A model generated the notes under the pieces. It made no database searches. It had not been told where the DNA came from and was given only the letters and a program-made list of their open reading frames with translations. From Galbibacter sp. BG1 (GTDB taxonomy: Bacteria > Bacteroidota > Bacteroidia > Flavobacteriales > Flavobacteriaceae), in the NCBI RefSeq assembly GCF_013391805.1, contig NZ_CP058364.1, forward strand, positions 2,981,501-3,045,500: a stretch of DNA of 64,000 nt, given 5' to 3'. This document shows positions 16,718 to 46,282 of the stretch, piece by piece. Each line of letters opens with the position of its first letter. Position 1 is the stretch's first letter. The position numbers and the translations under genes are program-made.

Positions 16718-16731
16718 ATTACACGTGTAAT
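16718..16731. promoter_or_regulatory. LacI-type operator O1
   Basis: ATTACACGTGTAAT is a perfect 14-base palindrome. It lies in the divergent region between the LacI-type gene and the operon at 16765 and could control both. Confidence 0.85.
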
Positions 16732-16764
16732 GTGCTAAATTAACTATTTTATATATAATTTCCG

Positions 16765-17319
16765 ATGACAATGAATAAATTAAAGATTTTCTTAATCTTT
16801 TTTGTATTGAATCTATTCTTTACAATTAATAGCAACGCTCAACAACGCAATTTTTCGTATTTTAAACTATGTGTGACCAATAGCCAAAATGAAATTTTGT
16901 TGGTAAAATATAAGGGAATCTGGGAACTAGCAGGGAAAAAATATGTTGACACTCTCTCAATTAAACAGTTCACGGCTGGAATGGCAGGTGAAATGGGGGT
17001 TAATATTAAGGATACTCAGTTAAGGGGATTGTTCACCTTTTATTACAATGATGCTAAGTATCCAATTATTTTTAACTACTACAGTGCACAATATCATTCT
17101 GGAGACCTTGTGGTTCCTCCTGGATGTTCGGATATAGCGTGGTTTTCACTTCAGGAGGCATTAGAAATAATTCCGTTTAAGACCATGACCATGAGTTTGC
17201 AAAAAATGTTCGAGAAACCTTCTGTCGTGTGGGGCGGTTCCTTCCATATTGAAAAATCCAAACCCATGAAAATTGATAAGGTGAAAATGCTCGAGGATTT
17301 CTACCCTTTAAGCCGTTAA
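16765..17319 (+). CDS. Exported Nudix-like protein with degenerate Nudix box
   Basis: This encodes 184 residues; an internal ATG at 16771 is also usable. A signal peptide runs to about residue 27 (NSNAQQ). The remaining fold pattern (FKLCVTNSQNEILLVKYKGIWELAGKK, then SIKQFTAGMAGEMGV, then FSLQEALEII) resembles a Nudix hydrolase. The canonical box G-x5-E-x7-R-E-x-x-E-E-x-G is reduced to FTAGMAGEMG: the Arg and most of the catalytic Glu residues are missing. Export and loss of catalytic residues suggest a binding role or a new activity. It is the first gene of the LacI-controlled + operon, 34 bases after operator O1. The family assignment is moderate. Confidence 0.6.
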   Translation: MTMNKLKIFLIFFVLNLFFTINSNAQQRNFSYFKLCVTNSQNEILLVKYKGIWELAGKKYVDTLSIKQFTAGMAGEMGVNIKDTQLRGLFTFYYNDAKYPIIFNYYSAQYHSGDLVVPPGCSDIAWFSLQEALEIIPFKTMTMSLQKMFEKPSVVWGGSFHIEKSKPMKIDKVKMLEDFYPLSR

Positions 17320-17327
17320 ATAGAAGT

Positions 17328-18200
17328 ATGATGGAAAGAATGTTTGTTATCGTACTTCTTTTGGCATGTTTCTTTAGTAACGGTCAAAATTTGAAATATG
17401 GAAAGGTGGAAAAAGTGGCTGGCGGGTTTAAATTTACAGAAGGACCAGCTGCCGATAGGGAAGGTAATCTCTATTTTTCAGATGTGATAGCTAGTAAAAT
17501 ATACAAATTCAACCCTAAGAAAGGGGTAGACACAGTTGTTGAAGATACAAAATGGGGGAATGGAATTTATATTTCTAAATCAAATGATTTGTTTTTTTGT
17601 CAAAATAAAGGTAAGAATTTGGTCAAATTGTTGACCAATGGTAAGGTTAAGCATTTGTTGACATCGGAAACCTCCAATTCATTAAATAGCCCAAATGATT
17701 TATGGATAGTGCCCTCTGGGGGCATTTATTTTACCGATCCCAATTATGATACTTCTTCCACTCCAGAAATAGAGGGTGTATACTTCTTAGGACCGAATAA
17801 AGAAAAACCTATTTGTGTTGAGCAGACGTTGACCCGACCTAACGGGATAATAGCGACGCCAAAGGGTGATACACTTTATATTACAGATCATGGGGATAAT
17901 AAAACTTGGCGCTACACTGTAAATAAAAATGGTGGATTGAAGAACAAGGAGTTAGTGGTTGAACATGGTGGAGATGGTATTACTTTGGATTATAAAGGAC
18001 GTATTTATATAACAGATCTAGGACAAAATGCAATAAACATCTATACTGTTTCCGGAGAATCCATAGATCAGATTGATATTCCTGAAACTCCCTCCAATGT
18101 GGCCTTTGGAGGTGAGAAAAGAAATATTCTTTTCGTTACTGCGAGAACTTCGTTATATGCCATCAAAACGAATTCTAGGGCTCAGGAAAAGACATACTAA
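17328..18200 (+). CDS. Exported SMP-30/gluconolactonase
   Basis: The product is 290 residues with a signal peptide ending Phe-Ser-Asn-Gly-Gln. It shows the metal-ligand motifs of SMP-30 lactonases: KFTEGPAADREGNLYFSD (Glu ligand), NSPNDLWIVPSGGIYFTDP (Asn ligand) and DGITLDYKGRIYITD (Asp ligand). It probably hydrolyses a sugar lactone in the periplasm. The gene follows the Nudix-like gene by 8 bases. It is closer to classical gluconolactonases than the proteins at 3721 and 60263. Confidence 0.88.
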   Translation: MMERMFVIVLLLACFFSNGQNLKYGKVEKVAGGFKFTEGPAADREGNLYFSDVIASKIYKFNPKKGVDTVVEDTKWGNGIYISKSNDLFFCQNKGKNLVKLLTNGKVKHLLTSETSNSLNSPNDLWIVPSGGIYFTDPNYDTSSTPEIEGVYFLGPNKEKPICVEQTLTRPNGIIATPKGDTLYITDHGDNKTWRYTVNKNGGLKNKELVVEHGGDGITLDYKGRIYITDLGQNAINIYTVSGESIDQIDIPETPSNVAFGGEKRNILFVTARTSLYAIKTNSRAQEKTY

Positions 18201-18223
18201 ACAATACTCTAAGAATCAATTTT

Positions 18224-21200
18224 ATGTATTACAGAAGAATTGTAAATTATACGAAGCTGTTGAACGCTAAAAATAAAATTAATTTTTTTTTAGCTGTATT
18301 TATGGTCAACGCTTTACTTTATGGGGTAAACGCACAATGCGAACATTCTCCAAAACTTTTTGAATTGAAAGATCACAAGATAACAGGAGTGAAGTTCCGT
18401 AATGACTTGGATGATACGGGTAAGGTTAATTTTTTATCCCATACTTTCATATACAACGGAGCCGGGGTGGCTGTTGGGGATATTAACAATGATGGTTTGG
18501 ATGATATTTTCTTTAGTGGCAATATGCGCAGTAGCGAATTATATTTGAACAAAGGTAATTTGCATTTTGAAAATATAACTGAAAAGGCCGGAGTAAATGA
18601 TGGTAAAGACCATTGGGCTACTGGCGTGAACATGGTTGATATAAATAGCGATGGCTGGCTGGATATTTATGTTTGCTATACCAATAGGGATGAGCCTTCC
18701 AAACGGAAGAATAGATTCTATATCAATCAAAAAAATGGAAAATTCAAAGATGAAGCTCAAAAATATGGTTTAGATGATGCGTCGTACAGCGTCCAAGCTG
18801 TTTTCTTTGATTTTGATAGGGATAATGATTTGGATATGTATTTGTTGAATTATAATTCTGACCATATTTCGTCCACCAATTGGGAGTATGTGAAACACAC
18901 CCGTGATCTTTATGCCGGTGATAAGCTCTTCGAAAACAGGGACGGAAAATTCCATGATATTAGTAATAAAGCGGGAATAAAAGGTTCACCATTGGGGTAT
19001 GGACTTGGAGTTGCAGTAGCTGACATTAATGGAGATAATTATCCGGATCTCTACATATCAAATGATTTTGTAGAACCTGATTACCTGTACATCAATAATG
19101 GAAATGGCACCTTTTCAGATCAGTTGCCTCAGTATTTTCAACATATAAGTCAATTTTCAATGGGATCGGATCTTAGCGACTACAATAATGATGGAGCCGT
19201 AGACCTTTTGACCATAGATATGCTTCCAGAAGACAATAAAAGACAGAAACTGCTTTACGGTCCCGAGAATTATGAGGCTTATGCCAGGCAAGTTCTCAAT
19301 GGATACTATCACCAAAGTATGCGTAACATGCTGCATCTAAACAATAGTAACGGAACTTTTAGCGAAATTGGTCAATTGGCAGGGGTTAGTAATACGGATT
19401 GGAGTTGGAGTGCGCTACTGGCTGACTATGACAACGATGGTTGGAAAGATTTATTTATTACCAACGGCTATTATAAAGATGTTACAAATAAAGATTTTCT
19501 GAAGTTTAAGGGGGACTATTATTTTGAACAACAAATTAAGGGGGAAGAGCCGGATACTACCTATATAGTAAAGAATACGGTATCGACCCCAATTTCCAAT
19601 TATATTTATAGAAATGAAGGTGATTTGCGCTTTAAGGACATGTCAAAATGTTGGGGAATTTCTGATCTACCTGGTTTTTCCAATGGGGCTGCTTATAGTG
19701 ATTTGGATATGGATGGAGATCTGGACCTTGTTATAAATAATGTTAACGGATTCGCTTCCATATACGAAAATCGTTCTAATGTGGTGTATCCCAATCGCAA
19801 CTTTATAAAATTAGACCTTAAAGGATCAAAGGGTAATTTGGGTGCATACAATTCAAAGATTAACATTTTTTCCCAGAACGGGAACCAGTTCTATGAAAAA
19901 ATGCCCGTGCGGGGATTTCAATCGGCAATGAGTCCATTAATCCATATTGGTCTGGGTGAAATTAATCAAATTGATTCCGTTGTTATTGATTGGGATCCTA
20001 CCCGCAAATCCATAATTAAGAACCCAAAACTCAATACCACAATAGTAATTGATAAACAAGAAAGTGAAATTAGATCAACAAGGAATAAAACGAATCAAGA
20101 CCCTGTTCTATTGGGAAAAAAAGATATTATAAACCATCAACACAAAGAATATCCTATCAATGACTTTAAAAGACAGCGACTTTTATTGACCATGCCATCA
20201 AATTCAGGACCCGTAATTAAAACTGCCGACTTGAACAGTGACGGTTTGGAAGATGTAATCATCGGGTCTTCAAAAGGTAGCTATACAGAGATTTACTATC
20301 AGAAAGAAGATGGGACTTTCCTTATTAAAAAATTAGATTCAACTTTTAACCATGGAACCACAACCTCATTAGAGCTTGCCGATTTTAATGGGGACGGTCT
20401 CTTGGATATTTATGAAGGCAACGGCGGTTACCACGATTATACTCCAAGGGATAAAAATTTACAGGATCGATTATATTTAAATGTTGAATCCAGATTTAAA
20501 TTTCAGAATAATCTGCCTGTTATGACTATTAGCACAGGTTCTGTTACAAGTTCGGATTTTGATAATGATGGAGATTTGGATTTATATGTAGGGGCTAGAA
20601 TAGTTCCAGGTATGTACCCCTTGACTCCCCCAAGCTATCTACTATGTAATGATGGACATGGTAATTTCACGGATTGTACCGAGAATTTAGCACCATCCTT
20701 TGAGGATCTAGGGATGATCACCAGTTCCTCTTCTTTCGATTTTGACAAGGATGGGTGGGATGATCTCATCTTGGCAGGCGAATATATGCCCATAACTTTT
20801 TACCAAAACCAAAGTGGAAAGGGCTTTAAAAATGTTACGGCAGAAGTTTTTCAATCAGGGTTTACTGGACTATGGTCCGCTATCGAAAAGGCAGACTACG
20901 ATAACGATGGTGATATAGATTTGGTTCTGGGGAATTTTGGTCTCAACTCCCAGTTGAAAGCCAGTGTAAAGGAGCCGCTGTCAATTTATTTTGGGGATTT
21001 CAATAAAGATGGTGCAATAGATCCCATTGTAACCTCCTTCATTCAGGGAAAAAAATATCCTTTTGCCAGTAGGGATGCAATTACCAACCAAATGATTTCT
21101 TTAAGACGAAAATTCCCCACCTATGAAAAATTTTCGGAAGCAATTTTGGAAGAGGTACTTGACGAAAATCAGCTAGGACAGGCTTCTATCTTGACCGCTG

Positions 21201-21571
21201 TAAACCTTACATCTGTATACCTAGAGAATGTAAGTGGAAGGTTTATACTTCGCAACCTTCCTTTAGAGGCCCAATTCGCTCCTATTCAATGTATATTTAC
21301 AACGGATATAAACGATGATGGATACCTTGATATACTAACTGGGGGTAACCAGAGTTTTATTCGAATAAGACTGGGCGCAATAGACGCTAGCTACGGTCAG
21401 GTTTTCTTAGGTGACGGTAAAGGGAACTTTAGGTTACTTCCTCAAAAAGATTCCGGACTAAAATTAAAAGGAGATGTTAAATCTATCGATACTTTAAAGG
21501 TAGGTAATAAAGAATATTACTTATTCGGGATGAATAATGCCCCTTTAGAAACATATTTAAAAAAACAATGA
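18224..21571 (+). CDS. Large exported FG-GAP/VCBS repeat protein with ASPIC/UnbV domain
   Basis: The product is 1115 residues with a signal segment ending around VNAQC (residue 38). Many calcium-loop repeats of the form DINNDGLDDIFF, DINSDGWLDIYV, DYDNDGWKDLFI, DLDMDGDLDLVI, DFNGDGLLDIYE and DFDNDGDLDLYV fill two propeller-like regions (about 60-480 and 640-1080). Between them, residues about 525-605 form an ASPIC/UnbV domain (RNFIKLDLKGSKGNLGAYNSK ... IHIGLG). Proteins of this CRTAC1-like type are common in PUL regions of marine Bacteroidota and are believed to be surface-exposed binding proteins. The stop overlaps the next ATG by 4 bases. Confidence 0.9.
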   Translation: MYYRRIVNYTKLLNAKNKINFFLAVFMVNALLYGVNAQCEHSPKLFELKDHKITGVKFRNDLDDTGKVNFLSHTFIYNGAGVAVGDINNDGLDDIFFSGNMRSSELYLNKGNLHFENITEKAGVNDGKDHWATGVNMVDINSDGWLDIYVCYTNRDEPSKRKNRFYINQKNGKFKDEAQKYGLDDASYSVQAVFFDFDRDNDLDMYLLNYNSDHISSTNWEYVKHTRDLYAGDKLFENRDGKFHDISNKAGIKGSPLGYGLGVAVADINGDNYPDLYISNDFVEPDYLYINNGNGTFSDQLPQYFQHISQFSMGSDLSDYNNDGAVDLLTIDMLPEDNKRQKLLYGPENYEAYARQVLNGYYHQSMRNMLHLNNSNGTFSEIGQLAGVSNTDWSWSALLADYDNDGWKDLFITNGYYKDVTNKDFLKFKGDYYFEQQIKGEEPDTTYIVKNTVSTPISNYIYRNEGDLRFKDMSKCWGISDLPGFSNGAAYSDLDMDGDLDLVINNVNGFASIYENRSNVVYPNRNFIKLDLKGSKGNLGAYNSKINIFSQNGNQFYEKMPVRGFQSAMSPLIHIGLGEINQIDSVVIDWDPTRKSIIKNPKLNTTIVIDKQESEIRSTRNKTNQDPVLLGKKDIINHQHKEYPINDFKRQRLLLTMPSNSGPVIKTADLNSDGLEDVIIGSSKGSYTEIYYQKEDGTFLIKKLDSTFNHGTTTSLELADFNGDGLLDIYEGNGGYHDYTPRDKNLQDRLYLNVESRFKFQNNLPVMTISTGSVTSSDFDNDGDLDLYVGARIVPGMYPLTPPSYLLCNDGHGNFTDCTENLAPSFEDLGMITSSSSFDFDKDGWDDLILAGEYMPITFYQNQSGKGFKNVTAEVFQSGFTGLWSAIEKADYDNDGDIDLVLGNFGLNSQLKASVKEPLSIYFGDFNKDGAIDPIVTSFIQGKKYPFASRDAITNQMISLRRKFPTYEKFSEAILEEVLDENQLGQASILTAVNLTSVYLENVSGRFILRNLPLEAQFAPIQCIFTTDINDDGYLDILTGGNQSFIRIRLGAIDASYGQVFLGDGKGNFRLLPQKDSGLKLKGDVKSIDTLKVGNKEYYLFGMNNAPLETYLKKQ

Positions 21572-22869
21572 AATTTACAATAACACTTATTACGGTAATA
21601 TTATCTTATCTGGGATTCTCTCAAGAAAACAAAAGCGAAGCATCCTACTATAAAGATCAATTGTTCGAAATTACTAAAGTAATGGTTCATGATGTTATTA
21701 GCCCGCCCGTTGCAGCACGCTATTACGCTTACTCATGTTTAGGGGGGTATATTGCCTTGAATGGTACAAAAGCCAATAAAAATTTAAAACTGTTATCGGT
21801 GTTGCCCAAATTTTCTTCAAAGTTTCCACTTCCGTCAAAAAATGTGGATAATCACTTAGCAGCACCCTATACGCTGCTGGAAGTAGGCAAAGCAATGTTG
21901 CCCTCCGGTTACCTTTTGGAAGACATTCAACAACAAATGTTGGATGAATACAGGAAAACTGACAAGCTTTCTGAAAAAGACATACAGGAAACTGTAACCT
22001 ATGCTGGAAAGGTTTCTGAGTTTATAGTAGAGTATGCGAGCACCGATGGTTATAGTAAATTAAGTGCTATGATTGGGTATACCCCTAAAAATGAGCCTGG
22101 TTATTGGTACCCCACGCCTCCTGCCTATATGGCCGCCATAGAACCCAATTGGAATATCATTCGACCTTTTTTTCTTGAAAGCCCTGAGCAGTTTAAGCCG
22201 ATCCCGCCAACACCCTTTAGTTTAGATGAACAAAGTAGTTTCTTTAAAAATCAATTAATGGGAGTTTATAATGCTGTTAAAAACAACACCGAAGAACAAT
22301 TGTTGATAGCCAAATTTTGGGATTGTAACCCCTTTATGGTACGTTATACGGGCCATATGGCTATTGGAATTAAGAAAATCACTCCAGGGGGGCATTGGAT
22401 GGGTATTACAGGGATTTCCTGTCAAAAAGCCGGTTACGATCTAGAAAAAACAGTGCTGGCGCATACATTAGTGGCGTTAACATTGCACGATGCTTTTATA
22501 AGTTGTTGGGATGAAAAATATAGAAGCGACCGTATTCGGCCAGAAACTGTAATTAATAAGCATATTGATAAAAGTTGGAAACCGGTTTTGCAAACTCCCC
22601 CATTTCCGGAATACACCAGCGGGCATAGTGTTGCCTCAAGTGCCGCGGCCGTAATTTTGACACACCTTTTTGGAGAAGATTTTTCTTTTGTGGATGATAC
22701 AGAGGTTTTCTTTGGACTTCCCGAACGTTCGTTTCCGTCTTTTTATCAGGCTTCCCAGGAAGCAGCTATGAGCAGGCTGTATGGTGGAATTCATTATATC
22801 GATGCCTGTGAAAATGGAGTTGTTCAAGGAAAAGAAATAGGATTCTATGTTGTGAATAAAGTAAAATAA
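21568..22869 (+). CDS. Exported vanadium-haloperoxidase/PAP2-like protein
   Basis: This encodes 433 residues with a signal peptide ending Gly-Phe-Ser-Gln. The three vanadate or phosphate binding motifs of the haloperoxidase/acid-phosphatase superfamily are complete: Lys317 with Arg324-Pro325 (KYRSDRIRP), Ser351-Gly-His353 (TSGHS) and Ser402-Arg403 ... His409 (SRLYGGIHY). Length and the long N-terminal helical part fit the bacterial haloperoxidase branch rather than small PAP2 phosphatases. Members may oxidise halides or act as phosphatases; the sequence alone cannot decide. It is translationally coupled to the FG-GAP gene, an unusual position inside a polysaccharide locus. Confidence 0.85.
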   Translation: MKFTITLITVILSYLGFSQENKSEASYYKDQLFEITKVMVHDVISPPVAARYYAYSCLGGYIALNGTKANKNLKLLSVLPKFSSKFPLPSKNVDNHLAAPYTLLEVGKAMLPSGYLLEDIQQQMLDEYRKTDKLSEKDIQETVTYAGKVSEFIVEYASTDGYSKLSAMIGYTPKNEPGYWYPTPPAYMAAIEPNWNIIRPFFLESPEQFKPIPPTPFSLDEQSSFFKNQLMGVYNAVKNNTEEQLLIAKFWDCNPFMVRYTGHMAIGIKKITPGGHWMGITGISCQKAGYDLEKTVLAHTLVALTLHDAFISCWDEKYRSDRIRPETVINKHIDKSWKPVLQTPPFPEYTSGHSVASSAAAVILTHLFGEDFSFVDDTEVFFGLPERSFPSFYQASQEAAMSRLYGGIHYIDACENGVVQGKEIGFYVVNKVK

Positions 22870-22875
22870 ATATTT

Positions 22876-23901
22876 TTGAAAAAAACAGTAAATTTTGGAA
22901 TTGTAGGGTATGGGAATATTGCTGAACATCACATAACCAGTATAAATACCATAGCCAATGCTAAATTAATAGCGCTTTGTAGCCGTAGTGAAGAGAAAAG
23001 GCGAAAGGTTAAAGACACTTACGGAATAGAGGTATATGCCAATATAAATGATATGCTTAAGCTAAAAGAATTGGATGTAATTTCTATTTGCACTCCCAAT
23101 GGATTTCATTTAACACCTTGCATTTTGGCAGCGAAGGCGGGAAAACATGTAATTACCGAAAAACCTTTGGAAATTAATGTATCCCGCTGTCTACAAATGA
23201 TAGAAGCCTGTCAAAAATCACAGGTTATTTTAGGTTGTATATTTCAGAATAGGTATATTCCGGGATACCTTACTTTTAAGGAAACTGTGGAGAGCGGGGC
23301 GTTGGGAACATTGATATTGGCTAGTGCTTCGGTTAAGTGGTACCGTCCACCTTCTTATTATAAGGAAAACAATTGGCGTGGTACTTTAGATGGTGATGGC
23401 GGCGCTGCCTTAATCACACAGGCAATTCACTCTATTGACCAAATGCTCCACGTAATGGGTAAAGTTAAATCGGTACAGGGTAAGGTCAAGACCAATTATC
23501 ATGATATCGAGGGGGAAGATGTGGGCACTGCTATTTTAGAATTCGAAAATGGGGCCCTAGGAATTATCGAAGGAAGCACTGCGATTTATGCCGGATTTCC
23601 AGAGAAGCTAGAGGTTCATGGCAGTAATGGTAGCATTATCTTGGAAGCTGGAAAAATTACGCAATGCAGGATTAAAGGAAATGAACAATTTGAAGTAAAA
23701 CCTGAAGATGGCACCACCTCGGCTTCCAGTGATCCAAAAGCGGTTGATGTAGGACTTCACATTAAGCAATATCAGCATTTTGTAGATTGCATTCTTTCAG
23801 GTACGGAGCCAGAGGTGGATGGGCAGGAAGCTTTAAAGTCGATTCAAGTTTTGGATGCTATTTACACCTCTTCGAGAACAGGAAGGATAATCTACTTATA
23901 A
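22876..23901 (+). CDS. Gfo/Idh/MocA-family oxidoreductase, cytosolic
   Basis: The product is 341 residues. The start is TTG 22876; no ATG is suitably placed, and the sequence MKKTVNFGIVGYGNIAEHH immediately forms the Rossmann GxGxxA motif. Residues about 92-97 show the family EKPLE motif (GKHVITEKPLEI), and DGDGGAALITQAIHSIDQ matches the conserved substrate His region. It likely oxidises or reduces a sugar or cyclitol with NAD(P). It lacks a signal peptide, unlike the paralog at 59148. It ends the + operon and converges on the acyl-CoA dehydrogenase gene with 16 bases between. Confidence 0.9.
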   Translation: MKKTVNFGIVGYGNIAEHHITSINTIANAKLIALCSRSEEKRRKVKDTYGIEVYANINDMLKLKELDVISICTPNGFHLTPCILAAKAGKHVITEKPLEINVSRCLQMIEACQKSQVILGCIFQNRYIPGYLTFKETVESGALGTLILASASVKWYRPPSYYKENNWRGTLDGDGGAALITQAIHSIDQMLHVMGKVKSVQGKVKTNYHDIEGEDVGTAILEFENGALGIIEGSTAIYAGFPEKLEVHGSNGSIILEAGKITQCRIKGNEQFEVKPEDGTTSASSDPKAVDVGLHIKQYQHFVDCILSGTEPEVDGQEALKSIQVLDAIYTSSRTGRIIYL

Positions 23902-25066: not shown

Positions 25067-25078
25067 TTTAAATAGTTT

Positions 25079-25603: not shown

Positions 25604-25651
25604 CTGCTCTTTGTTTGATGATTTATCTTTACATCGAAATTAAAATAAAGG

Positions 25652-34740: not shown

Positions 34741-34741
34741 A

Positions 34742-34772
34742 CAAAACTACTTAATTTATTTTATTTTACAAA
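34742..34772 (-). promoter_or_regulatory. SusC promoter
   Basis: On the minus strand a TTTG (34772-34769) is followed after 19 bases by TAGTTTTG (34749-34742). This matches the Bacteroidota consensus TTTG-N19-TAnnTTTG. Transcription would start near 34735, inside operator O3. Confidence 0.72.
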
Positions 34773-34922: not shown

Positions 34923-34936
34923 ATCACACGTGTAAT
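34923..34936. promoter_or_regulatory. LacI-type operator O4
   Basis: ATCACACGTGTAAT, one mismatch from a perfect palindrome. It lies just upstream of the -7 box of the KDG kinase gene, so binding would block RNA polymerase. Confidence 0.82.
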
Positions 34937-34944: not shown

Positions 34945-34952
34945 TATTTTTG
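34945..34952 (+). promoter_or_regulatory. -7 box of the KDG kinase operon
   Basis: TATTTTTG is a full match to TAnnTTTG, 26 bases before the ATG at 34979. The -33 region is T-rich but has no clear TTTG at the right distance. Confidence 0.55.
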
Positions 34953-36001: not shown

Positions 36002-36006
36002 ATAGT

Positions 36007-38065: not shown

Positions 38066-38093
38066 AAAAATAGTTTAGGTTAAACAATCGTAG

Positions 38094-40667
38094 CTATTCA
38101 ATTGCAAAAAGATAGCCATTTTTACATAGTGCCAATACTTTATTTCCATATAAAGCGGGAGCGTTTTCCAGCATTTCACCTCCAGTAAACACCCTCCAAA
38201 GAATTTTTCCTGTATCCGGCGAAATACCGGTGATAAACATACTGGTCGATGATCCTGTAATTAGTGTTTTATCAGTTATTACGGGAGCAGTAAGTCCCCC
38301 AACATTATCTAATTCCCATATCTTATTTGGATTGCCTATGTTTTTACTGTTAAAAGCACGCATGGTTGAAGTGTATGGAAGAGAGATCACTTTTCTTACG
38401 GTTGAAGTAAAAATCATATCCCTGTTTGCCGCAACCGAAGCATTTTGTAAGTGCCCCCTTTTTGCATACCATTCCCAGGCAATTTCTCCCTTTTTTACAT
38501 TCAATGCGGCCACAGCCCCTCCTTTTTTCTGAACATATAGATATCCTTTATATAGAATGGGTGCTGCTGAATCAGGCAATCCCCCATAATCATTTGCACT
38601 TGTTTTGGTACGCCATTTAAGCGCTCCCGTCTTTTGATCAAAAGCAAAATAGTATCCGGACCAGGAGCCCACATAGAAATTTTTATCATCCTTTGTAGGA
38701 ATGCTATAAACCCCGGAAGGAAAACCGTGTGTAAATGGTGTTGTAAGTGGTATTTTCTCTTTTGGGGTGTCTTTTGCAGTATTATATTTCCACATAATAT
38801 TTCCGTTTTCCGGATTAACAGCAAAAACGAAACCATCGGTATTACCAAAGAAAAGTTTACCGTCCGCATAGGTAGCACTTACCCAAACCCGACCAAATTC
38901 TTTGGAGCTCCAAATAGGCTCCCCAGTGTTTTTATTTAATGCGAAATATTCTCCGGGATTCTCATAACCATAATGTTCTGTGTTAGCGCCAAGATAACCG
39001 AAAAAAATCCTTTCATCAACAACTGTGGGGGCTAAGGATACTGTACTGTTAGTTTCAAAACGCCATATTTCTTTTCCTGTTTCCACATTTACAGCATTTA
39101 CGAATCCATCAGGTCCGCCTATATACGCAACACCATCGACAATTGTTGGAGTTCCCAAAAGCCCACCGGCCCAATCTGCCTTGTAGTAGTTTCCACTATC
39201 AAAAATACCGTCTACAATGCCGTGTTGCCATAAAGTCTCTAAACTATTGGGAGATACCGCATGCAAGACTAGGTTTTGATCCGCAATAAATACTCCATTA
39301 TTGTTTCCAACAAGGTCGGCTGTAATTGGATGCTCGCTTATAGGATTCCCTAAGACTATTCTTGGTTTTTTGGTAGAGATATCAATTTTATGTAGCAGGC
39401 CATCAAAGCTTGCAGCATATAAATAATTATTTACTGTCACAGGGGCGGCCCTAATCCAATCGGATAGTTTTAGCTTCCAGAGCTGTTTGCCTTCAGGTGA
39501 GAAGCAATATAAATTCTTATTACTGGCACCAATGAAAACTTGATCATGGTAAAAGTGGGCCCCGGAATAGAATTGATTTGACTTTTTTTCAATCTCTTCT
39601 GCTTGAAAACTCCAGTTAAGATTTCCGTTTTTTACCTTAATTGAAAATAGTTTTCCTGTTGTATTGCCGATTATTAGTTGTTCATTCCCTATTGATGGTG
39701 TTCCTACCAATTCCGTATCGAGGTCTATATTCCATACTATTTCTCCAGTAGATAGACTAAAGCTATAAACTTCTCCGTTGCGCAGTGCGACCAAAACCAT
39801 TTCATTATGGACTTTTGGCTGGTTGGTGATATAATTTTGAAAATTATGTGTCCAAATATCCTTTCCTTCGTCGGTACTTGCTACGACAAGGGTTTTACCT
39901 AACCTGGTATAAGCAAACTTTAGTTCTTCTTTATTTTCCTTACTTGGTTGGCCAGTACTTTTGTCAACCACATGAATGGACTCTTCGTCAAAAGCGTTTC
40001 GAATAATTACGTTCTTTTGGGTGACCACAGGTGTCCATCTGGAACCATGATCAGTATAAAAATCAATTCCCATTTGTCTTGATCTCCATAGAACTTTTCC
40101 AGTTTTCTGATCTAAACAAAAACCATTCACATCAATTCCAGGGCTGGAAATAAAAAGTCTTCCATTTTCCAAGACTGGAGTAGCTGTTGAGTGATAGCCT
40201 TTAGGGAATTTCCATGCTATTTTACCTTTTGTGGGACCGGGATCTGGAGAATATCCGGTCTGTCGGTTTTCAGTGCCCAAATAATAAGGCCAATTGGTTT
40301 TGGATAATTTTTTAGTACGGACAGCATTGGAATTAATTTGTTCTATCTTTTTTCCAATAAAGTATAGGCTGTCCAAAGCCAAAAAACCTTTATCTATGTT
40401 TTCATAGTTTTTTTTAGCATCCGAGAAATCGGTTATCAAATTTTCAGAAAGCGTATCCATATTTGTAAGGTCGTACCCCTGTCTCCATAACAGTCGCCAA
40501 TAACGGAAAAGGGCAGCCCGTCTACCTTTGAAGTTTATACTGTCAGTTGGGGCTTCCTTGATTTCCTGTCGGATTTTATCAATATCGGTAAGTCCCGTAT
40601 CTTTTTGTAATTGAGAGTAACATGTAAGGGAAATAAGAAGGCAAATGTTAAGTACAAAGAGTTTCAT
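38094..40667 (-). CDS. Exported PQQ-type multi-blade propeller protein (paralog 1)
   Basis: The product is 857 residues with a signal peptide ending Cys-Tyr-Ser-Gln. Residues about 20-130 form a helical N-terminal domain (DKIRQEIKEAPTDSINFKGRR). The rest consists of repeated PQQ-type blades with the DxxTGxxxW signature (DQKTGKVLW, NVETGKEIWRFE, NKNTGEPIWSS, DQKTGALKWRT, SPDTGKILWRVF). The opening blade reads YLGTENRQTGYSPDPGPTKG. It is homologous along its length to the proteins at 48691, 51357 and 56455, but is the most divergent of the four. Such proteins may bind PQQ, but the conserved dehydrogenase Asp, Cys-Cys and calcium ligands are not evident, so an electron-transfer role is unproven. 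Confidence 0.82.
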   Translation of the reverse strand: MKLFVLNICLLISLTCYSQLQKDTGLTDIDKIRQEIKEAPTDSINFKGRRAALFRYWRLLWRQGYDLTNMDTLSENLITDFSDAKKNYENIDKGFLALDSLYFIGKKIEQINSNAVRTKKLSKTNWPYYLGTENRQTGYSPDPGPTKGKIAWKFPKGYHSTATPVLENGRLFISSPGIDVNGFCLDQKTGKVLWRSRQMGIDFYTDHGSRWTPVVTQKNVIIRNAFDEESIHVVDKSTGQPSKENKEELKFAYTRLGKTLVVASTDEGKDIWTHNFQNYITNQPKVHNEMVLVALRNGEVYSFSLSTGEIVWNIDLDTELVGTPSIGNEQLIIGNTTGKLFSIKVKNGNLNWSFQAEEIEKKSNQFYSGAHFYHDQVFIGASNKNLYCFSPEGKQLWKLKLSDWIRAAPVTVNNYLYAASFDGLLHKIDISTKKPRIVLGNPISEHPITADLVGNNNGVFIADQNLVLHAVSPNSLETLWQHGIVDGIFDSGNYYKADWAGGLLGTPTIVDGVAYIGGPDGFVNAVNVETGKEIWRFETNSTVSLAPTVVDERIFFGYLGANTEHYGYENPGEYFALNKNTGEPIWSSKEFGRVWVSATYADGKLFFGNTDGFVFAVNPENGNIMWKYNTAKDTPKEKIPLTTPFTHGFPSGVYSIPTKDDKNFYVGSWSGYYFAFDQKTGALKWRTKTSANDYGGLPDSAAPILYKGYLYVQKKGGAVAALNVKKGEIAWEWYAKRGHLQNASVAANRDMIFTSTVRKVISLPYTSTMRAFNSKNIGNPNKIWELDNVGGLTAPVITDKTLITGSSTSMFITGISPDTGKILWRVFTGGEMLENAPALYGNKVLALCKNGYLFAIE

Positions 40668-40753
40668 GTTATATGGTAATTTAAATACTAATTAAAAGAA
40701 AAGTATGGGAAAGATGAAGAGGCTTTCCCAATACTAATCAAGCTAACTACTAA

Positions 40754-42118
40754 CTATGGAGTTAATGTATCGAAAAAGGTGTAATACCCATCTTTGGCCA
40801 TCTGCGAAGCCAAAAAACACAATTCGACCATGTGATAATCTCCCCACATGCTCGATTCGTCGGTGGGAACCTTTTGTCCTTTTTGTACATGATCCCATCC
40901 ATTGGGCCAATGATAAACGGAATGCTTTAAAATTCCTTGGTGATCCTTGTCGGTGGCAAGATAATCGTCCTGCAAAAGAGTCTGCAGAACGCTAAGGCCT
41001 GCTTGAATGTATTTATTGGATGCATTTTTGTCCTTATTTTCCAAAAGCTTACCCAAACGCAGAAGACCTTGGGCTCCAATTGCAGCTGCCGAACTATCAA
41101 TAGGTTCAAATTCATTATAAATATCAGCCTTTCGTTGCGTATAGTCACCGAGCTTATGAAGGGTCGGTGCACCTGTATCCCAATAGGGAATACCATCTTT
41201 TGACGTATGTGATATATAAAAATCGCATGTTGCCTTAGCTGCCTTTATTAGATTATTTTTAATAGATTCAATTTCTTCTATTTCTATATTTTCGTGTTCC
41301 AAATACTCTAGAAATTCTGGAAACCCAACCATGGCCCATGAAAGTCCACGAGTCCATGTAGTAAATCCTGAAAATCCCTGTTGGGAGTTCGGACACCTAA
41401 AGTTACCATCATTTATGTTGAAAATTGCTTCATGGGAAACTCTACCCCGAATATCATATTGATCCCGACCTTCCCCGTAGTATACTGAGTATTTGGCTGA
41501 AGTTAGAGCATGGGTTATCGCCCTATCCAATAAATTGATTTCCTTATCGTTCTCATCTAGCATTTTGTGACCTAGTTTATGTGCGGCCAACAAAATTCGG
41601 GCTGTTCTGATAGTATCTATGAACAAAGAGTGTGGTCCATTGAAAGAGTACATATAACCGCCATCTTTTATTTGGGTCCATCTTTTTGATTGAACGGATC
41701 CTGAAGCTTGAATGGCAAGTTTATAAAAATTTCTTTCCCCTTCCGAAGATTCGAAAAGCTCGGCGTTCGACATTCTTAATAAATTTCCATAGGTACTAAG
41801 GTTATTGAAACCGTGGTCGTGGACTCCAAAATGCGTTATATGGTGGGCCATATTATTCACGGTATTTCTCTTCCCGAGTTCAAACATTTCTTCATCCTTG
41901 GTAGCATTGGCTACAAGAAGCGGAATTCCATATTGAAAACCTTGGGTCCACTCGGTCCATCCTCGAGAGGTGTATTTCCCTTCTACGGTAAATACAGGAG
42001 CGCCCTTGGTTTTGTCGTAGTTACTTTCCACTAATAATGCTTTACTTTTTGCTAGTACCCAAAATTCATCTAATTGCTTATTTAAATTGCTTATTGTTAA
42101 GGTTGTATTGATATCCAT
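40754..42118 (-). CDS. GH88-like unsaturated glucuronyl hydrolase, cytosolic
   Basis: The product is 454 residues without signal peptide. The (alpha/alpha)6 toroid is marked by RGWTEWTQGF, by Asp101 in HDHGF and Asp168 in FIDTI (positions of the two catalytic Asp residues in GH88), and by TWTRGLSWAMVGF, PIDSSAAAIGAQGL and SSMWGDYHMVE. GH88 enzymes hydrate the double bond of 4,5-unsaturated uronates made by polysaccharide lyases, releasing the keto sugar. It therefore argues that a lyase acts in this pathway. The cytosolic location means that short unsaturated oligosaccharides are imported. It follows the enoyl-CoA hydratase gene in the minus operon. Confidence 0.85.
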   Translation of the reverse strand: MDINTTLTISNLNKQLDEFWVLAKSKALLVESNYDKTKGAPVFTVEGKYTSRGWTEWTQGFQYGIPLLVANATKDEEMFELGKRNTVNNMAHHITHFGVHDHGFNNLSTYGNLLRMSNAELFESSEGERNFYKLAIQASGSVQSKRWTQIKDGGYMYSFNGPHSLFIDTIRTARILLAAHKLGHKMLDENDKEINLLDRAITHALTSAKYSVYYGEGRDQYDIRGRVSHEAIFNINDGNFRCPNSQQGFSGFTTWTRGLSWAMVGFPEFLEYLEHENIEIEEIESIKNNLIKAAKATCDFYISHTSKDGIPYWDTGAPTLHKLGDYTQRKADIYNEFEPIDSSAAAIGAQGLLRLGKLLENKDKNASNKYIQAGLSVLQTLLQDDYLATDKDHQGILKHSVYHWPNGWDHVQKGQKVPTDESSMWGDYHMVELCFLASQMAKDGYYTFFDTLTP

Positions 42119-42221
42119 TATTTTTCTGAGGGTTTAAAAATTATTGAAAAAAGTCAGTGTCATCCATGTTCGTTGGTCCAGAATCTATACTGTGTTTGGG
42201 GGCTGCTTTGATAAGGATAGA

Positions 42222-42926
42222 TTAAGAATGGTTGGAAATATTAACAGCTAATACATCAAAGTCAATTGCTGAACCGTATGTCGTACGGTTGGGATCCATA
42301 ATTGCTGATTTGGCCATGGCATACGCCATGGGTTTAACCTGACTTAGCGTACTTAAAAGTCCGGAAATTTCGTTTTCATTCTTGATATAATGGATGAGTT
42401 TCATTTCTTGTGCTTGAACGGCATCAACCCGTTCAGATAATAGAATAAGTTTTTTTGCATGGACTTCACCAATCAGACGCGTAGCCCTAGCCATACCTCC
42501 CCAGCCAGGAAGCCATCCGTTTGAAACTTCGGGAAAAGCAAATATAGCGGTAGATGAGGCTATGCGAAAATCGCAAGCAAGGGCGAGCTCTAGACCTCCA
42601 CCCATCGCATAACCATTAATGAAAGCAACGGTTGGTTTCTTCAAACATTCCAATGAATTATTGATTTTATTACCAAGTTCAATCCATTCAGTTATTTCTT
42701 TGTCCTTCAATTTTTCAAATTCCTTAATATTGGCTCCTGAACAAAATGCCCTATCCCCAGCGCCCTTTATTAGGACTACTTTGATTTTATCTTCCTGCTG
42801 AGCCTGCTGTAAAGCGTTTTCTAAAGCATACAACATTTCAAATCCCAAACAATTTAACTTTTCGGGATAGTTAAGAACGATGCTGAAAACACCATCGGAC
42901 AGAGAAGTTAGAACTTTTTGACTCAT
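42222..42926 (-). CDS. Enoyl-CoA hydratase/isomerase (crotonase family)
   Basis: The product is 234 residues, slightly shorter than the usual 255-265. The oxyanion-hole motifs CSGANIKEF and FINGYAMGGGLELALACDF are present, and both crotonase acidic positions appear to be kept (Glu in GGGLELA and Glu in AFPEV). Cytosolic. It lies 2 bases after the CoA-transferase gene. It would hydrate or isomerise the acyl-CoA made by that enzyme. Acyl chain identity is unknown. Confidence 0.9.
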   Translation of the reverse strand: MSQKVLTSLSDGVFSIVLNYPEKLNCLGFEMLYALENALQQAQQEDKIKVVLIKGAGDRAFCSGANIKEFEKLKDKEITEWIELGNKINNSLECLKKPTVAFINGYAMGGGLELALACDFRIASSTAIFAFPEVSNGWLPGWGGMARATRLIGEVHAKKLILLSERVDAVQAQEMKLIHYIKNENEISGLLSTLSQVKPMAYAMAKSAIMDPNRTTYGSAIDFDVLAVNISNHS

Positions 42927-42928
42927 TT

Positions 42929-44485
42929 TTATTGAAATTTATCTTTTAATTTTAATTTATCGGATAGGAAAATCTTTTTGGAATATGACTTTAATTCCTC
43001 ACTGATTATAGGCGTGAAGTCCATCATATTCAATATATCTTTTTCCAAGTCCACGCCAGGAGCTATTTCAATCAATTCAAGTCCTTTGGGAGTAAGTCTA
43101 AATAGGGCCCTTTCAGTGGTATATAGAACTTCCTGTCCTTTTTCAATCGCATAATCTCCAGAAAATGTAACCTGTTCAACCTTATCAATGAACTTGTTGA
43201 ATTTGCCGGGGTTGGTTATTTTGATTCCTTCTGAAGTTATTTCCTGTTCCGATTTAACGGCAAAAGAGCCGCAGAACACCACTTTTTTTGCATTTTGTGA
43301 AATATCAATAAAACCACCACAACCCGTTAGTACATTACCGAACCTACTTGAATTAACATTGCCCTTTTTATCTATTTGGGCAAATCCCAGATATGCTATA
43401 TCCAATCCGCCACCTTGAAAAAAATCGAATTGATAGCCGTCATCTACAATAGAGGACGGGTTAAACATTGCTCCGAAATTCAATCCAGTAGTTGGAATAC
43501 CGCCTGTAGCCCCTTGTTCTATCATGAAAGTAAGTTGATCCGTAATTTCTTCTTCCCTTGCAACTATGGGAACTCCGTCAGACATTCCATACCCTAGATT
43601 AACAAATGCACCTTTATATAGTTCAAGTGCCGCCCTGCGGCTAACTATACGTTTTAACCCTTGAAGGTTTAGTTCTTCAGTTACATATGATGCATCTCTT
43701 TTTACTAAAGCAGGTTCGAAATTGGAAATAAAAGTCATTTCCTGATTTTCATCCTGTACCACATAATCTATTAAAACTCCAGGTACTTTAACCCTCTCTG
43801 GGTCCACGTGGTTATTATTTATATTTTTAACTTGGGCAATAACAATTCCTCCATTGGTTTTTGCAGCTTGAGCAATGGAAAGCATGGCAAAAAAGCCAAC
43901 TTCTTCCTCCATGGTCAGGTTGCCCTCCCGATCTATCGAAGTACCCCTGATAATAGCTACATTTGCCTTAAACGATCGATAAAAAAGATATTCTTCATTA
44001 TCCAATATTATCTTGGAAACCAAATTATCTTCGGTAATGCTGTTTATTTTTCCGCCTTCCAATTCAGGATCCACAAAAGTTTTTAGTCCTACTTTAGTTA
44101 CGATTCCCGGTTTTCCGGAAGCACTTGCTCTCATCAGATGACTAAGTACCCCCTGAGGAAAGTTATACCCTTTTATACAATGATTTTTTGCGAGTTCCGA
44201 CATTTTTGGGGCATTGCCCCAGAAACCTCCAATGTTGGTGTCTATTAACCCCTCGAGGGCAACGTGGTTGAGCCCCCTAGTATCATTATCGCCAATGCCG
44301 CAGGGGTGAATGGAGGTCAATCCTCTGGGAGCATTTTCATCTTGGAAGCGTTTTCCCAATGCGGCCATTACTTTATCCGGTACGGCATGTCCTGCTCCGG
44401 CACCGCCAAAAATAACAGTGTCATGATCTTTAATATGGCTAACGGCTTCTTCTGCACTTACAATTTTAAAATTTTTTTCTTTCAC
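42929..44485 (-). CDS. Acyl-CoA:carboxylate CoA-transferase (family I)
   Basis: The product is 518 residues, the length of fused alpha-beta family I CoA-transferases such as propionate or acetoacetate CoA-transferases (YdiF type). The N-terminal half has VIFGGAGAGHAVPDKVMAALG, and the C-terminal half has the catalytic glutamate in FMIEQGATGGIPTTG. The two halves joined in one chain are typical of this subgroup. It activates a free carboxylic acid by CoA transfer. Immediately upstream (42 bases) is the aldehyde dehydrogenase, which could supply that acid. Confidence 0.92.
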   Translation of the reverse strand: MKEKNFKIVSAEEAVSHIKDHDTVIFGGAGAGHAVPDKVMAALGKRFQDENAPRGLTSIHPCGIGDNDTRGLNHVALEGLIDTNIGGFWGNAPKMSELAKNHCIKGYNFPQGVLSHLMRASASGKPGIVTKVGLKTFVDPELEGGKINSITEDNLVSKIILDNEEYLFYRSFKANVAIIRGTSIDREGNLTMEEEVGFFAMLSIAQAAKTNGGIVIAQVKNINNNHVDPERVKVPGVLIDYVVQDENQEMTFISNFEPALVKRDASYVTEELNLQGLKRIVSRRAALELYKGAFVNLGYGMSDGVPIVAREEEITDQLTFMIEQGATGGIPTTGLNFGAMFNPSSIVDDGYQFDFFQGGGLDIAYLGFAQIDKKGNVNSSRFGNVLTGCGGFIDISQNAKKVVFCGSFAVKSEQEITSEGIKITNPGKFNKFIDKVEQVTFSGDYAIEKGQEVLYTTERALFRLTPKGLELIEIAPGVDLEKDILNMMDFTPIISEELKSYSKKIFLSDKLKLKDKFQ

Positions 44486-44527
44486 GTGTACTTTTTTAGG
44501 GTGATTGATTTATCTAATAAAAATGGG

Positions 44528-46021
44528 CTATCCTTTAACCCAGTTGCCAGGTTTTGCACCCATTTTGATTAAAACAGACTTTGTCTCCATATATTCATCA
44601 ATACTGTGCGGTCCCAGCTCCCTACCTAAGCCACTTTGCTTCATTCCGCCAAACGGAATTTCAGGATAGCCTGACATCCAATTGTTGACCCAAACTGTTC
44701 CTGCTTCAATCTTTCGTGTCATTAACATTGCCGTATCCAAATCTTTAGTCCATACCCCGGCTGATAAACCGTAAGGGGTGTTATTCGCTATTTCAATAGC
44801 TTCTTCGGCAGTTTTAAAAGTCAAGATTGACAGAACAGGACCGAATATCTCTTCTTTGGCTATATCCATGTGGGGTTGAACCTTTGTAAAAATGGTAGGA
44901 CTTATATAAAACCCGTTATCATCTATACCGCTATCCTTTCCAAGCTTTAATTCAGCGCCTTGCGCAATACCGGAATTAATACAGTTAATGATCTTATCAT
45001 ATTGGTTTTTATTTATGATAGCGCCTATCTTTACACTAGGATCAAGGGGATCACCTACTTTAACATCTTTCGAATGTTCGATGACGCGATTTTCGATTTC
45101 TTCGGCTATATCTTCGTGGACAATAATCCTTGATCCTGAATTGCAGCATTCTCCCATATTGAAATAAACCCCAAATACAATAGCATCAATGAGCGCATCG
45201 ATGTCGGCATCCGGGAAAATTATTTGTGGGTTTTTTCCGCCAAGCTCTAATTCAACTTTTTTTAAGTTTACCGAAGCAGACTTAACGATTTGTTTGCCAA
45301 CTTCAGTGCTACCGGTAAAGGAAATCATATCAACATCCAGACTTTCCGTAAGTGTGACCCCAACAGGGTCTCCATATCCAGCCACAATATTAACAACTCC
45401 ATTCGGGAGGCCTGCCTCTTTTAAGATTTCTCCAAGAAGAAGGGTAGTGCCGGGCGTCATTTCCGATGGCTTGATGACTGCCGTGCAACCGGCTGCCAGT
45501 GCGATGGGTAATTTCTGGGATATTATAAGGAGGGGGAAGTTCCATGGGGTAATCATACCAACCACACCTATGGGGACCTTTTGCATCATGGCAGTCATAT
45601 CGCTACCGACATTAGTGTTAACATCTCCAGCAATATGTCTAGCTAAGGTCGCAGCATAATCCCAAATACCGGCGGCCCACTCCATTTCATCCAAAGCCTG
45701 ACTTATGGGCTTTCCGCTCTCCAAAGTTTCAATCAATGCCAGTTCTTTTTTTCTTGCTCGAATAATCCCCGCTGCTTTACGAATTATAATTTCCCTGTCT
45801 GCACCGGTAAGGGATGACCATTTCTCACTTTTAAATGCCACCTTGGCTGCGGTAATTGCTTCTTCGGTATCTTCTTTTGTACTTAACGGATATTTTCCTA
45901 CGGTAACCCCATGTCCAGGACTTTCCCTTTCAAAAGTTTTGTTGCTGATAGAAGTCTTGTACGTACCATTTATAAAATTTTGGTATTGGTGCGGTTTATC
46001 GGGTAAACTAAACTGGTTCAT
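44528..46021 (-). CDS. NAD-dependent aldehyde dehydrogenase
   Basis: The product is 497 residues and shows all ALDH hallmarks: PWNFPLLIISQKLPIALAAG, the catalytic glutamate in LELGGKNP, the nucleophile in MGECCNSGSR (Cys292-Cys293, the second being the likely nucleophile), and the late EEIFGPVLSIL and NNTPYGLSAGVWT motifs. It is closest by pattern to betaine, aryl and aminoaldehyde dehydrogenases. It is the first gene of the minus operon under operator O5 and probably oxidises an aldehyde released from the substrate. Confidence 0.95.
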   Translation of the reverse strand: MNQFSLPDKPHQYQNFINGTYKTSISNKTFERESPGHGVTVGKYPLSTKEDTEEAITAAKVAFKSEKWSSLTGADREIIIRKAAGIIRARKKELALIETLESGKPISQALDEMEWAAGIWDYAATLARHIAGDVNTNVGSDMTAMMQKVPIGVVGMITPWNFPLLIISQKLPIALAAGCTAVIKPSEMTPGTTLLLGEILKEAGLPNGVVNIVAGYGDPVGVTLTESLDVDMISFTGSTEVGKQIVKSASVNLKKVELELGGKNPQIIFPDADIDALIDAIVFGVYFNMGECCNSGSRIIVHEDIAEEIENRVIEHSKDVKVGDPLDPSVKIGAIINKNQYDKIINCINSGIAQGAELKLGKDSGIDDNGFYISPTIFTKVQPHMDIAKEEIFGPVLSILTFKTAEEAIEIANNTPYGLSAGVWTKDLDTAMLMTRKIEAGTVWVNNWMSGYPEIPFGGMKQSGLGRELGPHSIDEYMETKSVLIKMGAKPGNWVKG

Positions 46022-46093
46022 ATTCTTTCAATTAATAAATTTTGTTCTGAATTTTGGACATTAGGAGTTTTAATTTTTTGCAATCCTAGAAAT

Positions 46094-46101
46094 CAAATGT
46101 A
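46094..46101 (-). promoter_or_regulatory. Putative -7 box of the aldehyde-dehydrogenase operon
   Basis: The minus strand reads TACATTTG, a full match to TAnnTTTG, 73 bases upstream of the ATG at 46021. Operator O5 lies directly upstream of it in the minus direction. Confidence 0.5.
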
Positions 46102-46111
46102 TAAAAATTTT

Positions 46112-46125
46112 ATTACACGTGTAAT
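46112..46125. promoter_or_regulatory. LacI-type operator O5
   Basis: ATTACACGTGTAAT, identical to O1. It lies in the divergent region, next to the -7 box of the minus operon. Confidence 0.85.
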
Positions 46126-46268
46126 ATATTAAGTATCTTTTTTACTTTTTAAAGATCAACTGCTCTGTATTATGTTGATTTACAATTATATTAATTTTAT
46201 TTTTTTAGTTAAAATTATTTAGCTAAAATAGTTTTTTTTGAAAATAATTAATTTTAATGTAATATTGC

Positions 46269-46282
46269 ATCACACGTGTAAG
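46269..46282. promoter_or_regulatory. LacI-type operator O6
   Basis: ATCACACGTGTAAG has the same core and ends 21 bases before the GH92 start codon at 46304, where it could repress the + operon. Confidence 0.78.

Follow-up and report, generated by a model that had tools for sequence, protein, structure and literature searches.

Gene content of the locus

The window analysed here, by which we mean the whole stretch of 64,000 nucleotides from Galbibacter sp. BG1 (contig NZ_CP058364.1, positions 2,981,501 to 3,045,500), carries a polysaccharide utilisation locus (PUL) together with a gene for a LacI-family repressor. The hallmarks of such a locus are all present: a SusC with plug and CarbopepD domains, SusD-like families, two GH92 proteins in which both the N-terminal and the catalytic domains were matched, a WbsX/GH99-like protein, a GH88-like protein and, in an operon beyond the window, a sulfatase. 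No GH76 protein was found among the proteins scanned.

Five gene units with predicted limits lie in the window beside the regulator gene. Unit 1 (16765..23901, plus strand) encodes a 184-aa secreted protein that appears nudix-like by eye and has no Pfam or NCBIfam match, together with SGL lactonase, FG-GAP/ASPIC, PAP2 and Gfo/Idh/MocA proteins. Unit 2 (23918..34607, minus strand) encodes SusC, SusD, the WbsX/GH99-like protein, a 710-aa protein without family, a CBM protein, a SnoaL-like protein and an acyl-CoA dehydrogenase. The protein at 28445..29527 passes the WbsX cutoff and falls below that for GH99; a weak GH99 pass (36.5 bits, cutoff 33) was obtained for the protein at L046:1108-2136. 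For the 710-aa protein there was no match in Pfam (E ≤ 0.001), in PDB sequences (E ≤ 0.1) or in 298 other genomes of the family (E ≤ 1e-50). Unit 3 (34979..36684, plus strand) consists of a pfkB-type, KDG kinase-like gene and a KHG/KDPG aldolase gene. Unit 4 (36827..46021, minus strand), which is mostly conserved across orthologous loci, encodes an aldehyde dehydrogenase (ALDH), a CoA-transferase, an enoyl-CoA hydratase, the GH88-like protein, a PQQ propeller and an Nramp-like transporter. Unit 5 (46304..61957, plus strand) encodes GH92, two PQQ proteins, the second GH92, a further PQQ protein, a Gfo/Idh/MocA protein and a TIM-barrel/SGL protein; the mechanical reading frame of its first gene opens at TTG 46286, and ATG 46304 is its likely start. 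A CBM lipoprotein gene (62117..63313) may follow unit 5 or carry its own promoter.

The regulator gene (15531..16550, minus strand) has a TTG start and encodes 339 aa, with the recognition helix SRVTVTK. Its assignment is based on Pfam, structure matches and clade: the helix-turn-helix matches PF00356 (E 4.3e-10, 39.7 bits, cutoff 27), the periplasmic-binding-protein-like ligand domain matches PF00532 and PF13377, and CcpA and PurR are among the nearest solved structures, aligned across most of the length. We take the protein to be about as long as PurR and to lack the additional tail by which E. coli LacI forms tetramers; most likely it forms dimers in the manner of PurR and CcpA. No other transcription factor was recognised among the scanned proteins of the locus.

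A cluster of palindromic sites in the locus

An earlier note on this DNA had described six copies of ATYACACGTGTRAT in three divergent intergenic regions, forming a network of 30 kb. All six positions hold the core ACACGTGT without mismatch, and the flanking gene pairs (LacI/184-aa gene, SusC/KDG kinase and ALDH/GH92) were confirmed. The count of copies was slightly generous, since the full palindrome is exact at four of the six and carries one mismatch each at 34727 and 46269. The candidate operators are O1 (ATTACACGTGTAAT, 16718..16731), a CG-centred palindrome recognised from its sequence in the gap that separates lacI from unit 1, 168 bp upstream of the lacI start; O2a (AGTACACGTGTAAT, 34727..34740) at the predicted susC start site, with O2b (ATTACACGTGTGAT, 34706..34719) 21 bp away; and three further sequence matches, O3 (ATCACACGTGTAAT, 34923..34936), O4 (ATTACACGTGTAAT, 46112..46125) and O5 (ATCACACGTGTAAG, 46269..46282).

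Two sites had been missed. O6 (ATCACACGTGTCAT, 60825..60838) lies within the reading frame 60263..61957, in codons for YHTCH, and its role is uncertain. The other, ATTACACGTGTACT, is found 6 kb beyond the window (G000:C1:3051660-3051673, equivalent to window position 70160), where it separates a PQQ pair from a sugar-porter/sulfatase operon. The clustering in one locus held, while its extent grew to eight core sites over 53.5 kb, with two further transcription units beyond the end of the window. Of the eight core sites, seven fall between genes, in a locus where, by our gene list, non-coding DNA makes up 4.1%. The pattern RYACACGTGTRY, a miswritten form of the motif, had no matches.

This concentration stands out against the rest of the 3.71-Mb genome. 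The exact 14-mer occurs four times, always at this locus; with at most one mismatch there are nine matches (none for the reversed control pattern), eight of them inside the 53.5 kb and the ninth with a broken core. The core itself occurs 16 times, eight of these within about 53.5 kb (binomial p ~2e-11, uncorrected for the choice of interval), and the eight outside the cluster comprise six in reading frames and two intergenic ones with other flanks. Within the window seven cores were counted, while 100 shuffles gave 0.33 on average. In 298 other family genomes the 14-mer was found once each in six and in none of the remaining 292. The genome-wide scan that the earlier note had proposed returned no other good sites.

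Position of the sites relative to predicted promoters

Most of the intergenic sites take one of two positions on promoters that we predict from promoter-like boxes. At one position the operator extends from about -36 to -21, over the -33 region and the adjoining spacer. This is the case for lacI (predicted -7 box TAATTTTG, 16701..16708, minus strand; O1 begins 23 bp upstream and covers the -33 region), the KDG kinase gene (TATTTTTG, 34945..34952, plus strand; O3 begins 22 bp upstream), the ALDH operon (TACATTTG, 46094..46101, minus strand; O4 begins 24 bp upstream), and two promoters beyond the window, those of the sugar porter and the PQQ pair. None of these five promoters has a TTTG or TTG element 18-21 bp upstream of the -7 box, so that their prediction depends on that box alone. 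At the other position, from about -3 to +11, the operator would cover the start site, as predicted for susC (TAGTTTTG, 34742..34749, minus strand) and the GH92 operon (TAATATTG, a 5/6 match, 46260..46267, plus strand); each has TTTG 19 bp upstream and an operator, O5 in the case of GH92, that begins 9 bp after the start of the box. At susC the second operator follows 21 bp further on, on the same helix face. Unit 1 shares the lacI site, and its own -7 box is weak (5/6).

Four site-orientations had an exact TAnnTTTG box at +22 to +24, and two had TTTG-N19 together with a box at -9 that matched 6/6 or 5/6; both counts were reached in none of 20000 random draws, with offsets picked after inspection of the data. 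The offsets were then held fixed for the 13 intergenic cores of four other organisms, the sample leaving aside five cores in reading frames (L124, L127 twice, L128 and L129) and three strict sites (G402:C1:772456, G403:C6:1009296 and G403:C7:47591). Three exact boxes were found in 26 site-orientations, against 0.10 expected (one of 20000 draws was as high). All three belong to Aestuariivivens. Both operator positions were seen again in another species.

Co-occurrence of the core with the regulator in other genomes

We compared 22 loci with the CoA-transferase. The core was present in all four with an orthologous LacI and in none of the 18 without (Fisher 1.4e-4; 7.5e-4 without Galbibacter mesophilus, which had first been noticed via the motif itself); many of the 18 come from contigs so short that a LacI may have gone unseen. 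Ulvibacterium is the weak case among the four: its CoA-transferase gene has no core in front of it, and its one core, an imperfect match (TTCACACGTGTTCT), precedes a sulfatase gene. Three strict YACACGTGTR sites do occur in this genome, but elsewhere, and the one inspected lies inside a reading frame. In the tree, the five orthologous LacIs form one clade across two families, and SRVTVTK is found in all five and in none of the 30 other LacIs. The expectation that orthologous loci would keep the sites together with the regulator was thus borne out, with Ulvibacterium contributing least, and the comparison lends support to the reading of the locus as a regulon of a single LacI.

Other LacIs appear to have other operators. 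Among the 29 best-scoring LacI homolog loci of the family, 23 had CG-centred palindromes of a different sequence within 300 bp upstream, as expected if every LacI has its own operator. Among the matches listed from 299 family genomes, the own included, the best LacIs of other genomes reached 34-35% identity. A first scan of named genomes with the LacI found no relative; this means little, since the method depends on identical stretches of 8 residues and failed to detect the Aestuariivivens protein, which is 63% identical. SusD relatives at E ≤ 1e-100, the closest ones, were in four of the other 396 family genomes, in mannan-type loci whose SusC-SusD-GH99-GH92 neighbours are 37-61% identical to the Galbibacter sp. 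BG1 proteins; in the 14-20 kb examined at each, neither a match to the LacI nor the core was present. Two Cyclobacterium genomes contained TACACGTGTA pairs in tandem, which were set aside; in the one genome whose neighbouring genes were scanned they lie beside a phage-integrase-family gene.

A proposed regulon and its alternatives

What was observed can be read together: the sites, their concentration at one locus, where they stand with respect to promoter-like boxes, and the fact that they accompany the regulator and its recognition helix. Very probably, the 14-bp palindrome ATYACACGTGTRAT is the target of one LacI-family repressor, most likely a PurR/CcpA-type dimer, which keeps the promoters of the locus shut as long as its sugar ligand is absent. 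A breakdown product of the imported glycan would presumably free the repressor from its operators, so that surface capture (SusCD), trimming (GH92, the GH99-like protein, sulfatase and PQQ proteins), uptake (the MFS sugar porter) and cytosolic catabolism (KDG kinase and aldolase, ALDH, CoA-transferase, hydratase and acyl-CoA dehydrogenase) would be induced jointly. Our best reading is a regulon of about 33 genes in eight units under this probably dimeric repressor. The substrate is perhaps a sulfated, uronate-bearing alpha-mannan, which is our best guess.

Could the palindromes simply be chance products of AT-rich DNA? If up to three mismatches are allowed, the window has 16 matches where 8.2 would be expected, and related genomes are not short of the 10-mer YACACGTGTR: whole-genome counts were 16, versus 17 for the reversed pattern, in four genomes with the LacI, and 33 versus 39 in seven without it. 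The evidence is in the location of the sites, not in their number, and the statistics for the exact core and for one mismatch, together with the orthologous loci, leave chance with a negligible probability. Another DNA-binding protein encoded elsewhere might instead own the sites, lacI being merely one of its targets; indeed, lacI has one site before it, like any other target. We consider this improbable, as the scanned locus proteins include no second regulator, core and LacI ortholog are both present in four of the 22 loci and both absent from 18, the recognition helix is identical across two families, and the genome-wide scan turned up no good sites at other loci, where a global factor would be expected to have them.

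Repression by the LacI, as preferred here, also has to be weighed against the idea that the bound protein mainly activates, or both activates and represses. Some LacI-family proteins, such as CcpA and Cra, activate from some of their sites, and the -33-type promoters without a TTTG element would suit an activator. Against this, the sites coincide in part with the -33 region or with the predicted start site, and a protein bound there should get in the way of RNA polymerase; activation is thus unlikely, if slightly less so than an unrelated binding protein.

Beyond this genome, it is possible, though we hold it only tentatively, that the system is a portable cassette. In this reading, the operator of one LacI subfamily did not change even as identity between the proteins dropped to ~42%, and the subfamily may have spread between Flavobacteriaceae and Persicobacteraceae. 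It would thereby have brought differing glycan modules (SusCD-GH92, sulfatase, PQQ) under joint control with a core pathway (ALDH/CoA-transferase/hydratase/GH88-like) that is itself conserved. Composition shows no sign of recent transfer, the GC content being 0.36-0.40 everywhere. The flanking S9 peptidase gene, sought for an empty site in relatives, was found in none of four other genomes (E ≤ 1e-60).

For a large polysaccharide locus, regulator, operator, promoter positions and target list could in this way be linked from sequence alone. The prediction is well supported in that the repressor's relatives adjoin the same DNA word, and this support in other species makes the regulon directly testable. 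The target list also links six PQQ propellers, the CoA-ester operon and the family-less 710-aa protein to one presumed glycan; without it these genes would lack an assignment.

Comparison with known systems

A literature search on LacI with this core, LacI with PULs and regulons of Bacteroidetes, in which subscription journals were thinly covered, returned no description of this regulator or operator. Flavobacterial PULs for alpha-mannan and glucuronomannan contain GH92, GH99-related enzymes and sulfatases (PMC9723552, PMC13063451), and the terms LacI, PQQ and regulator do not occur in the main text of either paper; compared with the loci as presented there, that of Galbibacter sp. BG1 adds PQQ, KDG and CoA-ester genes under one presumed regulator. 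A xylan PUL of Gramella flava likewise has a LacI-family regulator annotated in a SusCD locus, but it serves xylan, and the relevant passages of the paper name no operator (PMC5306329). The rhamnose LacI regulons delineated by comparative genomics, with 20-bp palindromes and four consensus sequences, follow, in the passages describing them, the same logic of a regulator beside catabolic genes and a palindrome kept across orthologs, whereas the sugar and the regulators are different (PMC3870299).

Like repressors of the PurR/CcpA type in the LacI/GalR family, the protein described here combines a helix-turn-helix with a periplasmic-binding-protein fold and has a palindromic candidate operator with a central CG; what distinguishes it is the core ACACGTGT together with the helix SRVTVTK, common to the five orthologs. 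Altogether, a LacI-controlled polysaccharide utilisation locus is an ordinary and known kind of gene control, of which this appears to be a new and well-defined member.

Operator sites at the locus and in the genome

The six sites that the earlier note had placed at 16718, 34706, 34727, 34923, 46112 and 46269 all carry the core ACACGTGT and are confined, as it had described, to three divergent intergenic regions (lacI/184-aa gene, susC/KDG kinase and ALDH/GH92). Its wording of six copies of one motif held for four of them, which match ATYACACGTGTRAT exactly; those at 34727 and 46269 are one base off. A seventh core is found at 60825 within an ORF (60263..61957). This intragenic site (60825-60838; one mismatch to the motif) is in coding sequence 14.5 kb into the GH92 unit, and could be an auxiliary operator or a chance occurrence. 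An eighth core, at window-equivalent 70160 (6.2 kb beyond the window end), lies between two divergent sets of genes. One consists of two PQQ-propeller genes; the other encodes a sugar porter (PF00083), a sulfatase and a glucose/sorbosone-dehydrogenase-like protein that carries a cytochrome c domain. The network would thus comprise eight predicted promoters and, taking same-strand neighbours as operons, approximately 33 genes, from about window 15531 to window-equivalent 74700. The first proposal was right in substance, but the regulon is larger, with eight core sites, and has the cross-species support described below.

We scanned the whole genome (3.71 Mb, a single contig, window included), as had been suggested. 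All four exact motifs, and eight of the nine matches with at most one mismatch, were at this locus; in the ninth (270928), which is inside an ORF, the core is broken, and the reversed control gave none. At up to two mismatches there were 25 matches versus 22 for the reversed pattern, so that matches past one mismatch are mostly background, and no further good sites emerged. The bare core occurred 16 times (30 times when read backwards), with eight occurrences inside ∼53.5 kb (binomial p ∼2e-11, uncorrected for the choice of interval); the eight distant cores were in ORFs (six) or intergenic with different flanks (two). Among 298 other family genomes the exact motif occurred once each in six and more than once in none, and the reversed pattern gave one match each in 6 of 299.

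The regulator and its operator in other genomes

The LacI protein has 339 aa and a TTG start, which is common to Aestuariivivens. PurR has about the same length, and the extra tail of tetrameric LacI is absent here, from which we infer a dimer. Homologs matched in 138 of 299 family genomes, and the 29 best-scoring loci were fetched. In 23 of these 29, the 300 bp upstream contain a 16-bp palindrome centred on CG (7 or 8 of its 8 pairs matching), with ∼0.5 in 29 expected by chance (an arithmetic estimate). These palindromes differ in sequence (e.g. GCTTAAACGTTTAAGC, ATACAATCGATTGTAT), and the core was present in one homolog locus (L033), inside the LacI ORF.

Within the genus (seven genomes) there was one other such LacI, in Galbibacter mesophilus Mok-17 (43% identity); others in the genus and the family sample reached at most 35%. 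Its contig bears that genome's only two exact motifs, and a third core precedes a sugar permease gene. A CoA-transferase scan of named genomes gave 22 loci, with LacI orthologs in Aestuariivivens sediminis (63%), uncultured Persicobacter (52%), G. mesophilus Mok-17 (42%) and Ulvibacterium marinum (42%). Orthologous loci had been expected to keep the sites together with the regulator, and the core was present in exactly these four and in none of the 18 loci that lack the ortholog (Fisher 1.4e-4). Excluding G. mesophilus, which was first found via the motif, left 3/3 versus 0/18 (p 7.5e-4, own arithmetic); many of the 18 negative loci are short contigs, and at loci of at least 17 kb the counts were 4/4 versus 0/7 (p 0.003, own arithmetic).

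All five Persicobacter cores are intergenic: one before a sulfatase 72% identical to that of Galbibacter sp. BG1, one between LacI and the ALDH operon, one after a GH92 gene, and two in the gap that separates the 184-aa homolog from a 485-aa gene preceding SusC. The strict form YACACGTGTR occurs three times in this 5.7-Mb genome, each time at a locus site. Aestuariivivens has sites in the LacI/permease region, before a SusC-like gene and, on a separate contig, twice in the interval from a sulfatase to a PQQ gene; of its five strict sites these account for four, and the other is within an ORF. Ulvibacterium is the weakest of the four cases, with a single imperfect core before a sulfatase and three strict sites elsewhere. 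Strict 10-mer counts were not enriched in whole genomes (16 versus 17 reversed in the four with LacI; 33 versus 39 in seven without), and support therefore rests on site position. Of note, two tandem copies of TACACGTGTA, spaced by 20 bp, are found in each of two Cyclobacterium genomes (L125:6552-6585, L126:1752-1785, both comparison loci), in L125 adjoining a phage-integrase-family gene.

One clade (100/99) unites the five LacIs. The recognition helix SRVTVTK is present in all five and in none of the 30 other LacIs in the tree. The BG1 protein groups with Aestuariivivens and Persicobacter, and G. mesophilus with Ulvibacterium (100/98, 100/99). Because the two Galbibacter species are on different branches and, with the 30 other LacIs as outgroup, another family is nested among flavobacteria, the tree points to horizontal spread of the LacI with its operator kept. 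Transposase/integrase-core genes flank the locus on both sides (window 13065-15252; L046:12428-12940 and 16959-17462, beyond the window end), and a sulfatase fragment (14677-15252) adjoins lacI; the regulon seems to be delimited by remnants of insertion sequences.

Promoter geometry

Flavobacterial promoters have a -33 TTTG, at a spacing of 19 bp. Their -7 box is TAnnTTTG, at about -12 to -5, according to PMC9723704. Exact boxes follow the operator start by 22 bp (KDG kinase), 23 (lacI), 23 (porter) and 24 (ALDH), and a 5/6 box by 24 bp at the PQQ pair, so that these operators would cover about -36 to -21, the expected position of the -33 box. At all five, TTTG or TTG was absent 18-21 bp upstream of the -7 box. 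At susC (6/6 box) and GH92 (5/6) the operator begins 9 bp past the box start (about -3 to +11), with a TTTG at exactly 19 bp upstream in each case. The sole box of the unit starting with the 184-aa gene is 5/6, at -12. When seven positions were drawn at random from the same intergenic regions, none of 20000 draws reached both offset counts, the offsets having been picked post hoc. With offsets fixed, 13 intergenic sites (26 orientations) of four other organisms gave three exact boxes versus 0.10 expected (1/20000 draws as high), all from Aestuariivivens.

Gene content and predicted substrate

The predicted regulon encodes two GH92 enzymes, two GH99/WbsX-like proteins, a sulfatase, SusCD and PQQ proteins, a set that would fit sulfated alpha-mannan. 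This one locus encodes six long PQQ-propeller proteins, of which four are in the window and two lie past its end (window 38094-40667, 48691-54074, 56455-59148; L046:2278-7589). A uronate component is suggested by the kinase/aldolase pair together with a GH88-like protein. Our best guess, a tentative one, is diatom sulfated mannan or glucuronomannan, going by PMC13063451 and PMC9723552. The nearest solved structures are YdiF for the CoA-transferase and 3-hydroxypropionyl-CoA dehydratase for the hydratase, and the top model for the acyl-CoA dehydrogenase, far under cutoff, is acryloyl-CoA reductase; a 3-carbon acid route is possible. At window 40754-44485 (minus strand) a GH88-like protein lacking an obvious signal peptide is encoded near a CoA-transferase, as it is in 10 of the 22 loci, in Bacteroidota and Desulfobacterota (L099-L101, L103-L107, L115, L117), most of which also have the hydratase or acyl-CoA dehydrogenase, and the grouping is possibly an uncharacterised catabolic module. 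A secreted-looking 710-aa protein in the susC unit (26203-28335, minus strand) found no counterpart in Pfam, in PDB sequences or in the 298 other family genomes at the search thresholds applied, and may represent a new family of lyases or hydrolases.

Altogether, this predicted network is a further LacI-type regulon of a known sort, now with cross-species support.
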